DNA of 64,000 nucleotides, from contig JANWZA010000047.1 of NCBI GenBank assembly GCA_025054775.1, positions 1 to 64,000 on the forward strand. Reading direction: 5' to 3'. The stretch is from Microscillaceae bacterium. GTDB lineage: Bacteria > Bacteroidota > Bacteroidia > Cytophagales > Microscillaceae. The notes below the pieces were generated by a model that had not been told where the DNA came from, searched no databases, and worked only from the letters and a program-made list of their open reading frames with translations. Made by a program: the position numbers and the translations under genes. Below are positions 4,590 to 55,077 of this stretch, one piece after another. The first letter of the stretch is position 1, and the number at the start of each line of letters is the position of its first letter.

Positions 4590-5174
4590 ATGAAAAAGCA
4601 TCTTTTATTAGTAAGTTTTTTTTCTGCCAATCTAGTAGCGAATTTTCTTATATCCTTATTTATAGTTTTAGGAATAACTGCTTGCGAATTATTACAAAAT
4701 TTACCCAGGAATCACAAGAATCAAAATGTAATAGCTGCTCCTAAACCGCGCCCAACTGTTATCAACCCTAAACCTAAACCTACTACTTCTGTTCCTAAAC
4801 CTACCACCTCTGTTCCTAAACCTACCGCTACTACGACTAAACCACCTACTAATCTCTCTACTACCACCACACCTACTAGTTTGAAAGTAATCACAGGGAA
4901 AGCCTCATTTTATGGTACAAAATTCCATGGCAGACGTACTGCCAGTGGTGAAATTTATGACAAAGAAAAACTAACTGCTGCACATAAAACTCTGCCTTTC
5001 CAAACACAAGTGGAAGTGATGAACCTTAAAAATAACAAAAAGGTTACTGTAATCATTAATGACAGACTGCCTGCCAACTCTAAAAGAGAGATAGATCTGT
5101 CTGAACGTGCTGCAAGGCTATTGGAAATGATTAAGGACGGGGTAGTAGATGTGCAAATTACTATTTTGAAATAA
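4590..5174 (+). CDS. rlpA: RlpA-like double-psi beta-barrel lipoprotein
   Basis: I start the protein at the ATG at 4590 because it begins a clear lipoprotein signal, with a hydrophobic stretch ending GITAC; the earlier ATGs at 4530 and 4569 add only non-signal residues. A low-complexity linker of repeated S-V-P-K-P-T-T units follows the acylated Cys. The last 95 residues form the RlpA barrel: GKASFYGTKFHGRRTASGE and then INDRLP...REIDLSERAA. RlpA proteins cleave naked glycan strands at the septum in Pseudomonas. The catalytic-region motif usually reads NDRGP; here Gly is replaced by Leu. There is no SPOR domain. The gene is convergent with the two ompH genes. Confidence 0.82.
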   Translation: MKKHLLLVSFFSANLVANFLISLFIVLGITACELLQNLPRNHKNQNVIAAPKPRPTVINPKPKPTTSVPKPTTSVPKPTATTTKPPTNLSTTTTPTSLKVITGKASFYGTKFHGRRTASGEIYDKEKLTAAHKTLPFQTQVEVMNLKNNKKVTVIINDRLPANSKREIDLSERAARLLEMIKDGVVDVQITILK

Positions 5175-5184
5175 AATAACATCC

Positions 5185-5219
5185 TTTTCTTGCCAAGGCT
5201 TTCTTTCTTGGTAAGAAAA
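5185..5219. terminator. Intergenic hairpin between convergent rlpA and ompH
   Basis: TTTTCTTGCCAAG (5185-5197) pairs with CTTGGTAAGAAAA (5207-5219) over 13 positions with one G-U type pair and a 9-base loop. It sits between two convergent stops. No clean T run follows on either strand, so it may be a weak or shared terminator. Confidence 0.5.
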
Positions 5220-5255
5220 CGATGCTAAACAGGTAAAACAACAAAAGTTACGTGC

Positions 5256-5792
5256 TTATTTTTTATCTGAACTTGCAGGTGGGGGAGTAACTCCCATCTT
5301 TTTCAATACAAGGTCTGAAATATTACCCTCTGGAATTTCAAAGAGTAATGATTTTTTATCAAAGATGTAGGTATAATTATTTTCCTTTGCTACCTCTTGC
5401 AAGGCTTTTTCTATTTTTTCCAAGATAGGTGCCATGAGTTGTTGATACTTTTCTTCTGATTTTTGTTGTGCCATTGCTTGGAATTCGTACAATTGTTTTT
5501 CTAGAGCCTGTAATTCTTTAATCTTAATTTCTTTGATTGCCTCATTCATTGTATTTTGAGCTTGTTGAAAAGCTTGAACTTTTTGCTTAAATTCGTTAGT
5601 TTTGTTTTCCTCTTCTGTTTTAAGCTGTTTGTTAAATGTGCCTAGTTCAGTCTCAGCTTGTTTGTAGGCAGGGAGCAGAGGGAGTACATAGTTCAAATCA
5701 AAATAACCCAATTTAAGATTAGTTTGTGCAAAGGACATTTCAAAGCTAGTGCCTAACAGCACAATAAAAGAAATAAAAAACTTTTTTCTCAT
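5256..5792 (-). CDS. OmpH/Skp-family periplasmic chaperone (second of pair)
   Basis: The 178-residue protein begins with a signal peptide (cleavage after SFAQ) and continues with the Skp opening LKLGYFDLNYVLPLLPAYK. A long charged coiled coil (about 45-130) follows, then the closing strand YTYIFDKKSLLFEIPEGNISD. Skp trimers hold unfolded outer-membrane proteins in the periplasm with their coiled-coil arms. It is the downstream gene of a tandem pair, 75 bases after the other ompH gene. Tandem ompH genes are common in Bacteroidota. Confidence 0.9.
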   Translation of the reverse strand: MRKKFFISFIVLLGTSFEMSFAQTNLKLGYFDLNYVLPLLPAYKQAETELGTFNKQLKTEEENKTNEFKQKVQAFQQAQNTMNEAIKEIKIKELQALEKQLYEFQAMAQQKSEEKYQQLMAPILEKIEKALQEVAKENNYTYIFDKKSLLFEIPEGNISDLVLKKMGVTPPPASSDKK

Positions 5793-9500: not shown

Positions 9501-10904
9501 TTACATGATTTGTTTTAGAATACCAAAAAAAACTACGGAGAGTAAAATTGAGATAGGCAGAGTGAGTATCCAAGCGATTAAGATATTACGAATAGTACTA
9601 CTTTGTAGGTTAGCTAATCCTTTATTAGCCACCATACTACCTGCCACTCCTGAGGAGAGTACGTGAGTGGTGCTTACGGGCAATCCAAAAAATGTAGAGA
9701 CACCTATTGTGCTAGCAGCAACTATTTCTGAACTTGCACCTTGGGCATAGGTAAGGTGTTCTTTGCCAATTTTTTCACCAATCGTAACTACGATGCGTTT
9801 CCAGCCTATCATAGTACCTATGCCCAAAGAGAAGGAAATAAGCAACACTACCCAAAAGGGAGCATACTCTACAAAACTTTTCATATTTTGAAGGTGCTTA
9901 TTTAGTATAGCTTTGTCCTCTTTGCTTATTTTTAGCTTATTTTCTTTAACTAATTTGCCTAATTCTTTGGTTATTACCATAATATTTTTGCGTACAGCAA
10001 AGCGTTGATTCTCAGGGATTGTGGTGGCTTTTTCTGTTTCTTTGAGCATAAGGTCTAATTCAGCAATTTGCGTGTGTATCATAGCTAATTTTGTTTTGCT
10101 TTCTTGCGAAAGTTTGTTGATTTCTACGTTTTTGAGCACTTGTTCAATGGCTTGTATATTATGCCTTACTTCAGAAGGTTTGAGGTTATCAACCAAAGCA
10201 AATTGAATGGGTACGATTGCAATTAAAATAAGCATCATTAAACCTACCCCTTTTTGCCCGTCGTTTGAACCATGTGAAAGGCTGACCCCTGAGCAGGTTA
10301 GAATCAAAATCCCGCGTATCCACCAAGGAGGAGTCTTGTCTTTTTCGGGTTCTTGAAAAATTTTTGGATTTTTCACCAAAGTTCGTAGTAAAAACATGAG
10401 CAGGATTGTAAACCCAAACCCAAATAAAGGTGAAATAAGCAAAGATAAGCCAATTTCCCCTGCTTTTTCCCAATTTACATTGCTTAAAGCCCCATTTCCA
10501 AACACCGAATAGCCTACTCCTGCTCCAATAATTGCTCCAATTAGGGTATGTGAGCTTGAACAAGGAATACCATAATACCACGTTCCTAAATTCCAGATAA
10601 TAGCAGAAAGTAAGATAGATAGAATTAAGGCAATGCTTTGGTATAAGCTACTTGATTGTAAGAAGATTTCCATAGGCAGTAAATTGACAATGCCCATAGC
10701 TACACTTATTCCACCAAAAATTACACCTGTAAAATTGAGAATACCTGAAAGTACAACTGCCGTGTAAGGTTTGAGCGAATTAGTATAGATTACAGTAGCT
10801 ACTGCATTTGCCGTATCATGGAAACCGTTAATAAACTCAAAAATGCAAACAGCTAAAAGGCATAGAAAGAGGAGTATAGTTAGTTCAATATTTAATCCAA
10901 ACAT
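9501..10904 (-). CDS. PiT-family inorganic phosphate transporter
   Basis: This membrane protein carries both PiT signature repeats: GFHDTANAVATVIYT near the N-terminus and SHGSNDGQKGVGLM in the middle, plus the closing GLPVSTTHVLSSGVAG. About ten hydrophobic segments surround a charged, coiled-coil cytoplasmic loop (roughly residues 240-340), which is larger than in Escherichia coli PitA. PiT proteins import phosphate, usually as a metal-phosphate complex, driven by protons or sodium. I chose the ATG at 10904 (MFGLNIEL). The upstream ATG at 10946 would add MTVRSVKIFATIFF and is possible. No phosphate-regulon gene or PhoU homologue is adjacent. Confidence 0.9.
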   Translation of the reverse strand: MFGLNIELTILLFLCLLAVCIFEFINGFHDTANAVATVIYTNSLKPYTAVVLSGILNFTGVIFGGISVAMGIVNLLPMEIFLQSSSLYQSIALILSILLSAIIWNLGTWYYGIPCSSSHTLIGAIIGAGVGYSVFGNGALSNVNWEKAGEIGLSLLISPLFGFGFTILLMFLLRTLVKNPKIFQEPEKDKTPPWWIRGILILTCSGVSLSHGSNDGQKGVGLMMLILIAIVPIQFALVDNLKPSEVRHNIQAIEQVLKNVEINKLSQESKTKLAMIHTQIAELDLMLKETEKATTIPENQRFAVRKNIMVITKELGKLVKENKLKISKEDKAILNKHLQNMKSFVEYAPFWVVLLISFSLGIGTMIGWKRIVVTIGEKIGKEHLTYAQGASSEIVAASTIGVSTFFGLPVSTTHVLSSGVAGSMVANKGLANLQSSTIRNILIAWILTLPISILLSVVFFGILKQIM

Positions 10905-10946: not shown

Positions 10947-11350
10947 AGAGTTATACTTAGTTGAGTATATTTTTCGGCTTCAAAGTTAGTTGTTTTTTCT
11001 CAAATACAAAATTTAGGCATGTTTCTTACAAAATTCGTATATACATTTTACGTTTTTGCAACTAAAATTTGAAATACCATTGTGTAAGTGCATTTGCATA
11101 TTTCTATTTTTTATTAGAGGACATTAGCTAGGCAAAAAAAGCATTAAACCTCTTATCCTATCGCCTGTCTTTTGCTACAAAAGGTGAGTAGAAAAATGAG
11201 GGCTTACAAGCGGAAGTTTATACAAATTTACAAGAAATTAGCCTTAATTAGGCTTAGTAGATATAAAAAAAAATGAATTGTAAGTTAAAATTTTATGTAT
11301 GTAAGTTTATTTATCAAAAATTAAATCAAAAGATCTGATAACTTTCTTAG
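10947..11350. other. Gene-free interval upstream of the phosphate transporter
   Basis: About 400 bases between the transporter start and the 3' end of the candidate small RNA. The sequence is very AT-rich and has no credible ORF. I do not find a well-spaced TTG/TAnnTTTG pair for the transporter. Confidence 0.4.
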
Positions 11351-11489
11351 ATAAAAAAGATAACTGGAGAAGGCGACACCTGATGTCTGCACCTCTCCAA
11401 TATCTTTCAACCAGCTATGGAAAGAAAGACTTATTTGAGTGATAAACCTTTATTAACCAGCCCTAAAGGTTCTACCAAGTCTTTTCTTA
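11351..11489 (-). ncRNA. Candidate structured small RNA of about 140 nt
   Basis: Read on the minus strand, a perfect promoter (TTG, 19 bases, TACATTTG) is followed by a stem of 11-12 bp (11477-11488 with 11422-11432). This encloses a perfect 8-bp hairpin (AACCTTTA 11445-11452 with TAAAGGTT 11464-11471). Next come an unpaired stretch and a compound terminator stem (TATCTTT 11401-11407 with AAAGATA 11356-11362; inner TCTCC/GGAGA) running into six T. The word GCTGGTT appears twice in unpaired positions: the apical loop and the linker. There is no ORF in it. I do not recognise it as 6S, SRP RNA, tmRNA, RNase P or a known riboswitch. The phosphate transporter lies 450 bases downstream on the same strand. 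Confidence 0.65.
11353..11407 (-). terminator. Terminator of the candidate small RNA
   Basis: The outer stem of 7 bp (11401-11407 with 11356-11362) continues after a small internal loop into TCTCC/GGAGA and a further GACA/TGTC pairing. The minus-strand product ends in a run of six T (complement of 11353-11358). Confidence 0.75.
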
Positions 11490-11494
11490 CAACA

Positions 11495-11524
11495 CAAATG
11501 TAAGTAATAAAAAGCAAACTACAA
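11495..11524 (-). promoter_or_regulatory. Promoter of the candidate small RNA
   Basis: On the minus strand TTG (11522-11524) and TACATTTG (11495-11502) are 19 bases apart, matching the Bacteroidota primary sigma consensus TTG-N(17-23)-TAnnTTTG. The predicted start, about 6 bases on, coincides with the base of the first RNA stem. Confidence 0.75.
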
Positions 11525-11917: not shown

Positions 11918-12292
11918 ATGAGCTTTGATTGGAGAGATGAATGGGAAAGACATGCGGAAAAAGAGTCAAAAGCCCAACAAAGTAGAAGTGTAAGCGAACT
12001 TTTAGAGGATGTGCGGGAAGGCTGGTTTGATGGTTACTATAAGATTTGGTACACAATTGCTCGAAAGGCTACCGCACACCAAGCCTTACCCACACTCTTA
12101 GAAGCGGCACGGAAAATGCTTAAACAAACAGATTTCATGGATGACTTGCAAATAATTCATTGTTTGACAGCTATTTGTAAGCTGTTGCAAATTCCTGACA
12201 AAGAGGCTAAGGAATATATTTATGCCCAAGATAAATTACAGGCTGTCCAAATGCTGAGTGAAATATTTGAAAAATTACCTCAAAATAAATAA
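11918..12292 (+). CDS. Hypothetical helical cytoplasmic protein
   Basis: I do not recognise a family for this 124-residue protein. It has no signal peptide or membrane segment, and its pattern is all-helical and charged. The N-terminus is notably rich in Trp and acidic residues (FDWRDEWERHAEKE), followed by VSELLEDVREGWFDGYYKIWYTI and two or three further helices. The ATG opens straight into a soluble sequence and no better start exists. The gene is followed after 150 bases by fabH on the same strand, but fabH has its own -7 element, so co-transcription is not needed. Coding is supported by normal amino-acid composition and the lack of a competing ORF. Confidence 0.7.
   Translation: MSFDWRDEWERHAEKESKAQQSRSVSELLEDVREGWFDGYYKIWYTIARKATAHQALPTLLEAARKMLKQTDFMDDLQIIHCLTAICKLLQIPDKEAKEYIYAQDKLQAVQMLSEIFEKLPQNK

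Positions 12293-55004: not shown

Positions 55005-55077
<73 letters not shown>

Follow-up and report, generated by a model that had tools for sequence, protein, structure and literature searches.

The window analysed here, a whole stretch of 64,000 nucleotides from a Microscillaceae bacterium, contains on its minus strand a predicted small RNA of about 136–138 nt (positions 11353–11490), and comparison of sequences indicates that it belongs to a conserved RNA family of the order Cytophagales that is new to Rfam. In our assessment, with a probability of roughly 0.6, this is a family of multicopy, trans-acting sRNAs with Rho-independent termination, of which the window RNA is a long-form member. 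The exposed core, the intrinsic terminator, and the many copies point to the anatomy of a trans-acting base-pairing sRNA. Outside Bacteroides, knowledge of sRNA regulation in Bacteroidota is limited.

Predicted RNA Gene and Its Surroundings

The putative promoter occupies positions 11495–11524 of the minus strand, where a TTG (11524–11522), a 19-base spacer, and TACATTTG (11502–11495) can be read directly; GTAAGAAA follows TACATTTG without a gap on this strand. The initial annotation had described a minus-strand promoter running into stacked stems and a terminator with six T, and all of these elements were found in the window sequence. The 5′ end of the RNA is deduced from the promoter and the 3′ end from the terminator, and the prediction is based on the stability of the fold and on homologues. 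Among the 13 long homologues whose promoter regions were printed, the window copy included, TAnnTTTG stands at the matching place in seven; four copies are one letter off, and two do not fit. A simple consensus scan of the window listed neither the promoter nor the terminator of this RNA; the promoter pattern of that scan is of the sigma-70 type, not the Bacteroidota type.

Two frames on the sense strand of the RNA run into TGA and TAG codons at the core, and no conserved ATG was seen by eye. The predicted RNA has its own promoter, an intrinsic terminator, and no conserved reading frame, which are the features by which we class it as an sRNA.

The gap between the reading frames around the RNA measures about 970–1010 bases, and the phosphate transporter gene (first ATG at 10904) lies about 447 bases downstream on the same strand, close to the 970 and 450 bases given in the initial annotation. 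Among the 43 RNA loci compared, most of them with about 1.5 kb per side, the transporter is a neighbor of the window copy only; its place beside the RNA is incidental and not that of a conserved neighbor. A short GC hairpin followed by a T-rich tail is located between the RNA and the transporter gene (11254–11240, minus strand). A 124-aa protein encoded divergently from the RNA (11918–12292, plus strand) has no Pfam or NCBIfam match at E 0.001.

No family of Rfam 15 matches the RNA. At the gathering threshold, the sole match in the window is a tRNA gene elsewhere (55005–55077, minus strand), and a search at E ≤ 10 around the RNA returned only a chance microRNA match at 10997–11045. The 20 homologue-bearing loci gave no matches, and at E ≤ 1 ten loci gave two weak ones, both in a single locus (L229) and far below threshold. 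The earlier statement that the RNA corresponds to no standard RNA agrees with these scans, and the proposal of a new structured small RNA with its own promoter and terminator is supported by them together with the compensatory changes described below.

Fold of the RNA and Compensatory Changes

For positions 11489–11351, RNAfold gave −43.9 kcal/mol, compared with −29.24 kcal/mol (sd 3.38) for shuffled sequences (z −4.34), and none of 200 shuffles was as stable. The minimum-energy fold consists of an outer stem, a nested 9-pair stem with an 11-nt loop, and a long terminator stem, after which come six T. The 5′ domain (11422–11488, minus strand) comprises the bulged outer stem, in which 11488–11474 pair with 11440–11422, and the inner stem, in which 11472–11464 pair with 11452–11444. 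The intrinsic terminator (11353–11408, minus strand), identified also by its covariation score, has a long stem with an apical hairpin and ends in the U run at 11358–11353.

Taken alone, the 5′ domain of the window genome is not clearly beyond shuffles (z −1.47, 15 of 200 shuffles), which indicates that the terminator carries most of the fold stability of the RNA; support for the 5′ domain comes from the relatives, not from its own stability in the window genome. Two alternative partners exist for UCUUUC in the linker (11432–11402, minus strand), namely the 5′ arm of the outer stem and GAAAGA at the terminator's foot. This GAAAGA also pairs with AUCUUU, which gives a possible alternative fold, and the consensus fold prefers the linker pairing.

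As a check, the initial annotation had called for compensatory stem changes among relatives, and such changes were found in both structured parts. In the terminator, 92.4% of the alignment cells pair, versus 78.0% in shuffles (0 of 500 reach), two-sided changes occur in 9 of 14 pairs (2 of 500 shuffles reach), and the number of further pair types is 20 (15 of 500). The covariation score of the terminator is 0.503, compared with 0.226 for shuffles (0 of 500), and falls to 0.26 or less when the partners are slid by one to three columns; coding constraint contributes to this signal in L017 and L024, since these 2 of the 16 rows overlap lutB.

In the inner stem of the 5′ domain, two-sided changes were observed at 7 of 9 positions across 11 long forms. 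With the best offset per sequence, own arms pair at 8.5 of 9 positions and swapped arms at 7.1 of 9, and 15 of 110 swapped pairs reach 9; the arms were extracted by script because some rows of MAFFT alignments A2 and A3 have the inner stem one base out of place. The mean energy of the outer stem is −10.3 kcal/mol for own arms versus −7.3 kcal/mol for swapped arms, with 18 of 110 swapped pairs reaching the own mean. Of the 21 loci that entered the folding of the 5′ domain, all except L047 yielded one (L061 and L088 have identical sequences), and by reading, the outer stem with the nested hairpin is common to 17 of these 20 domains, with L025, L026, and L045 differing. Judged from such patterns of substitution, the fold of the RNA family is under selection.

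Distribution, Short Form, and Copy Number

A DNA search of 57 genomes revealed clear homologues with 73–83% identity over about 74–136 bases. Covariance model R1, which represents the 3′ half of the RNA, was built on 16 of the 20 core-bearing loci (alignment A1), leaving out the near-duplicate L021 as well as L022, L025, and L026. At E ≤ 0.01 it has matches in 31 of the 57 genomes, the window genome included, and it matches all 15 genomes of the window's family. The core pattern CATAGCTGGTTGAANGAT, with 17 fixed bases of 18, is present in 46 of 390 Cytophagales genomes and in 14 of 15 in the window's family; as a control, the pattern read backwards gave one match seen in the table of the 390 order genomes.

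Among 395 sampled genomes of the class, including 16 that are the window genome itself or members of the same order, the core pattern was found in the window genome and in one other, this being the one match among the 379 genomes of other orders. At that site, the opposite frame is open over the 60 residues printed, and the model gives 22.6 bits over part of its length. A model search in a sample of 395 genomes of the phylum returned the window genome only, which is weak evidence of absence, since 12 candidates per genome were scored and few near relatives were drawn.

A scan of named genomes yielded 31 stretches with the core pattern, reduced to 26 before counting by setting five aside. Three of these are lutB ends without a T run seen (L064, L068, and L081; the model still gives 31.1, 25.2, and 38.7 bits), and two were judged by eye to be without the RNA (L083 and L086; 27.1 and 17.1 bits); L022 and L049 were counted though doubtful by eye. 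All 26 belong to Cytophagales or to genomes placed there (Microscilla, Rhodocytophaga, Xanthocytophaga, Sporocytophaga, and metagenome genomes), and the cultured members Rhodocytophaga aerolata and Xanthocytophaga flavus carry copies. This conservation in relatives shows that the RNA element is not a product of chance. Spread by phage was considered and rejected, as the core pattern occurs in no viral contig.

The window RNA is a long form, that is, one carrying the 5′ domain. In the short form, which would measure about 65 nt, a promoter box is followed by the core, at or next to the predicted 5′ end, and immediately thereafter by the terminator. Among 77 distinct instances, 22 have TANNTT(T/A)G at most 22 nt upstream of the core, against a background of 49 in 3076 random windows (1.6%), and in 17 of these 22 the box ends exactly 5 nt before the core (CATAGC), in four at 7 nt. 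A looser box further upstream was found in 33 of the 77, which include long forms, and the remaining 22 have no box by the rule, several of them with near-miss boxes.

The family reaches about 17 copies per genome: the model gives 18 matches in G012 (one being the lutB end itself), 13 in G004, 10 in G003, 6 in G006, and 1 in the window genome. The flanks differ from copy to copy, and some copies are in tandem (L190, L203, and L204). In L203 (G029), three tandem copies about 380 bases apart, with near-identical leaders, are located at 4948–5788, and a fourth copy is on the other strand at 407–476.

The Core and the Repeated GCTGGTT Motif

The proposed pairing region is the core CCATAGCTGGTTGAAAGAT in the linker (11402–11420, minus strand), whose 3′ end overlaps the foot of the terminator stem. 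As RNA, the nearly fixed core reads CCAUAGCUGGUUGAARGAU (19 nt). CCATAGCTGGTT and GAT are kept in 16 of 16 rows of alignment A1, whose rows had been selected for the core, one mismatch being allowed. Fixation is not absolute, and G001, G008, G029, and family f4 have variants of the core.

GCTGGTT occurs twice in the window RNA, at 11461–11455 within the apical loop GGGCTGGTTAA (11453–11463, minus strand) and at 11415–11409 in the linker, and both copies had been annotated as unpaired. This is correct for the loop copy, but the linker copy is partly engaged in a 3-pair mini-hairpin, CCA/UGG, in the minimum-energy fold. The linker copy is the nearly fixed one, and the loop copy is kept in part of the family. 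In the form of GGGCTGGTT or AGAGCTGGTT, the loop copy is present in 11 long forms, which were chosen by that motif; it is absent from other long forms (for example, L018 and L020) and partly paired in a few folds (L015 and L016).

Search for mRNA Targets

Target predictions in the window genome used 588 predicted starts from 41 stretches (the window and 40 stretches of 20 kb), or about 0.86 Mb of the 3.01 Mb of the genome; some of these starts are wrong, since they were taken as the first ATG of long frames. The exact complement of the core, AACCAGCTATGG, occurs in this genome at the RNA itself only. Sites within two mismatches of the core complement number 221, versus 154 for the pattern read backwards.

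Pairing of the core over the 588 starts was weaker at the starts than in mid-gene windows (mean −7.5 vs −8.2 kcal/mol), and 7 of 100 shuffled cores reached the start-minus-gene difference. The core alone did not rise above shuffles, with six pairs or more at 7 of the 588 starts (274 of 2000 shuffles reach) and worse results for other lengths. With CAU fixed on the start codon, the core together with the pyrimidine tract gave 31 starts at −12 kcal/mol or below, compared with 9.1 for shuffles (10 of 500 reach); at −10 kcal/mol, at −8 kcal/mol, and in the mean, the observed values were reached by 57, 125, and 124 of 500 shuffles. Overall, the tests on the 588 starts were weak to negative, and the mRNA targets are putative. 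In the start context of the window genome, T stands at position −1 in 58% and C at −2 in 30%, and CAUAG complements the common CUAUG.

Ten relatives contain 29 perfect-complement sites, four of which are RNA copies, and 2 of the other 25 lie at the starts of frames longer than 300 aa, about what chance would give by a rough hand estimate. Both are in G018, which has 11 sites versus 1 for the backwards control. In L257 of this genome (minus strand), the start of a 391-aa frame resembling a secreted protein can pair with the core through an uninterrupted 16-nt stretch (one G-U) that ends on the ATG. This site is the clean one; the other, L252, may have its true start 40 codons downstream.

Pairing with the start of the adjacent DEAD-box helicase gene could be tested for 9 of 15 starts, one of which stands out (L025, 2 of 200 shuffles), and pairing with the phosphate transporter start was reached by 94 of 200 shuffles. 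On these tests, autoregulation of the helicase or transporter was rejected. The window genome encodes one RRM protein, which matches the RNA-binding regulator NF058537 above the cut-off.

Relation to lutB and Possible Origin

Read as its reverse complement, the core gives the codons for SFNQLW, which lie at the C-terminus of LutB, the product of a lactate-use gene. At nine of the 43 loci, lutB (TIGR00273) runs convergently across the core and terminator, the 3′ half of the RNA; at the other 34, the window's included, the search could see no lutB opposite. The DEAD-box RNA helicase gene is located directly upstream on the same strand in 15 of the 43 loci, and in four (L024, L077, L078, and L084) both genes are beside the RNA; the 43 loci are not all independent, several coming from one genus or genome. 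In the window genome, lutB is on another contig (C31), and the window RNA is not a cis-antisense RNA by that measure.

In relatives, the C-terminus of LutB is looser (W-G-K-R-R ... P-K-S-F-x-x-x-W), and the motif also occurs in the lutB of Chitinophagaceae (L064 and L081), where no terminator was seen. Seven of eight lutB ends without an adjacent RNA match the model on the antisense strand (15.6–38.7 bits; 22.1 bits in the window genome), by which the RNA appears homologous to the opposite strand of the lutB end. Because the LutB motif is wider in distribution than the RNA, birth as an antisense RNA would be the simpler direction. The core is nearly fixed while the lutB codons drift, and G022, G029, G030, and G045 carry the RNA with no LutB match at E 1e-20 (drafts; G045 is 84% complete). 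The predicted duplex with the lutB end has −24.0 kcal/mol in the window genome and −38.4 kcal/mol in the overlapping case of G018; over 30 lutB loci the energies range from −9.1 to −38.4 kcal/mol, the script having taken another frame in L163, L166, and L174 and a truncated one in L183.

Comparison of the sequences suggests that the family was born as a lutB antisense RNA. It may have arisen from the antisense of the lutB 3′ end in an ancestral order of DEAD-box helicase, RNA, and lutB, and then moved and multiplied. A fuller history, to which we would give somewhat less than even odds, is the traceable birth of a regulatory RNA from the antisense of the LutB C-terminal codons, with a promoter and a terminator gained between the helicase gene and lutB, escape from this place, a core kept almost unchanged without lutB opposite, a 5′ domain repeating part of the core in its loop, and a short multicopy form now regulating many genes across the order.

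Comparison with Known RNAs and Alternative Explanations

LhrC, Qrr, and OmrA/B have several near-identical copies per genome with a common pairing region. They are named as multicopy sRNA families in PMC11697453; in contrast to them, the Cytophagales RNA belongs to another phylum and has other sequences and partners, with homology compared through Rfam scans only. The closest described design appears to be that of FopS/GibS of Bacteroides thetaiotaomicron, in design and not in sequence. According to PMC11697453 and PMC7366714, these RNAs form base pairs at start codons or close to them and are bound by RbpB, an RRM protein, and FopS has 14 copies in B. thetaiotaomicron (PMC11697453). The likeness extends to multicopy paralogous Bacteroidota sRNAs, Bacteroidota-type promoters, an RRM-1 protein in the genome, and CATAG in the pairing region. 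The Cytophagales family differs in the structured 5′ domain of its long form, in the lutB link, and in not being from Bacteroidaceae; the FopS/GibS layout, a single-stranded 5′ stretch with the terminator next, fits the short paralogues by sequence, whereas the window RNA has the 5′ domain first. With the R1′ consensus of FopS, taken from the methods text of PMC11697453, the window RNA has CATAG as its longest word in common (a length that 4291 of 5000 shuffles reach); the word has 6 letters in a short form (627 of 5000) and 9 in L026 (49 of 5000; borderline). Homology to FopS/GibS was not supported, as the seed word of the window RNA is not above chance. In listings and abstract starts of open-licence PubMed Central, we found no description of this RNA or of Cytophagales sRNAs.

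We propose that the core, which lies between two helices in long forms and at the 5′ end in short ones, would pair with mRNAs, probably over translation start regions, where CAUAG can complement the CUAUG start context. The paired mRNAs would be repressed, perhaps with the help of the RRM protein of the same genome, and GCUGGUU in the apical loop may be a second contact site. Ranked next after the trans-acting sRNA, and in our view unlikely, is a decoy in which the repeated GCUGGUU is a binding site for a protein, the RRM protein for instance, and that protein is titrated by the RNA, in the manner of CsrB in other bacteria. The two motif copies of the long form, in loop and linker, would fit such a decoy, as would the many copies per genome alongside one RRM protein, a core that does not track the lutB codons, and the lack of an mRNA target found; however, short forms have one motif copy only, several long forms lack the loop copy, and the nearly fixed 19 nt exceed the usual single protein site on RNA, which is shorter.

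An RNA that regulates lutB alone by antisense pairing, in cis where the two overlap and in trans elsewhere, is distinctly improbable. Cis-antisense RNAs overlapping the 3′ ends of convergent genes are a known kind, and the Cytophagales RNA resembles them in the nine loci where core and terminator are antisense to the last lutB codons, but not in the other 34 loci. These nine loci and the two duplex energies quoted above for the window genome and G018 speak for a regulator of lutB alone; the four genomes with the RNA and no LutB match, the near-fixity of the core despite drifting codons, and the wide range of duplex energies argue against it. Less probable still is a repeat that spreads, or a terminator element in common use, with no function as RNA: it would explain why a genome can have as many as about 17 copies, including tandem ones, but not the promoter box that precedes the core at a fixed distance in 21 of 77 instances (5 nt in 17, 7 nt in four), the covarying stems, the order-wide identity of the core, or flanks that differ beyond the RNA. 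We give very little credence to a leader or riboswitch of the phosphate transporter gene, which is suggested by the common strand and the distance of about 447 bases; the terminator that closes the RNA lies far from the gene, another hairpin with a T-rich tail intervenes, the transporter is beside none of the other 42 RNA loci in the DNA compared, and no pairing with its start was found.

Implications

With the family described here, Cytophagales would gain an sRNA family that is defined and recurrent and has a nearly fixed core, by virtue of which its targets and partners become testable in cultured members. If the link to lutB is right, the family would also show the source of a new regulatory RNA.
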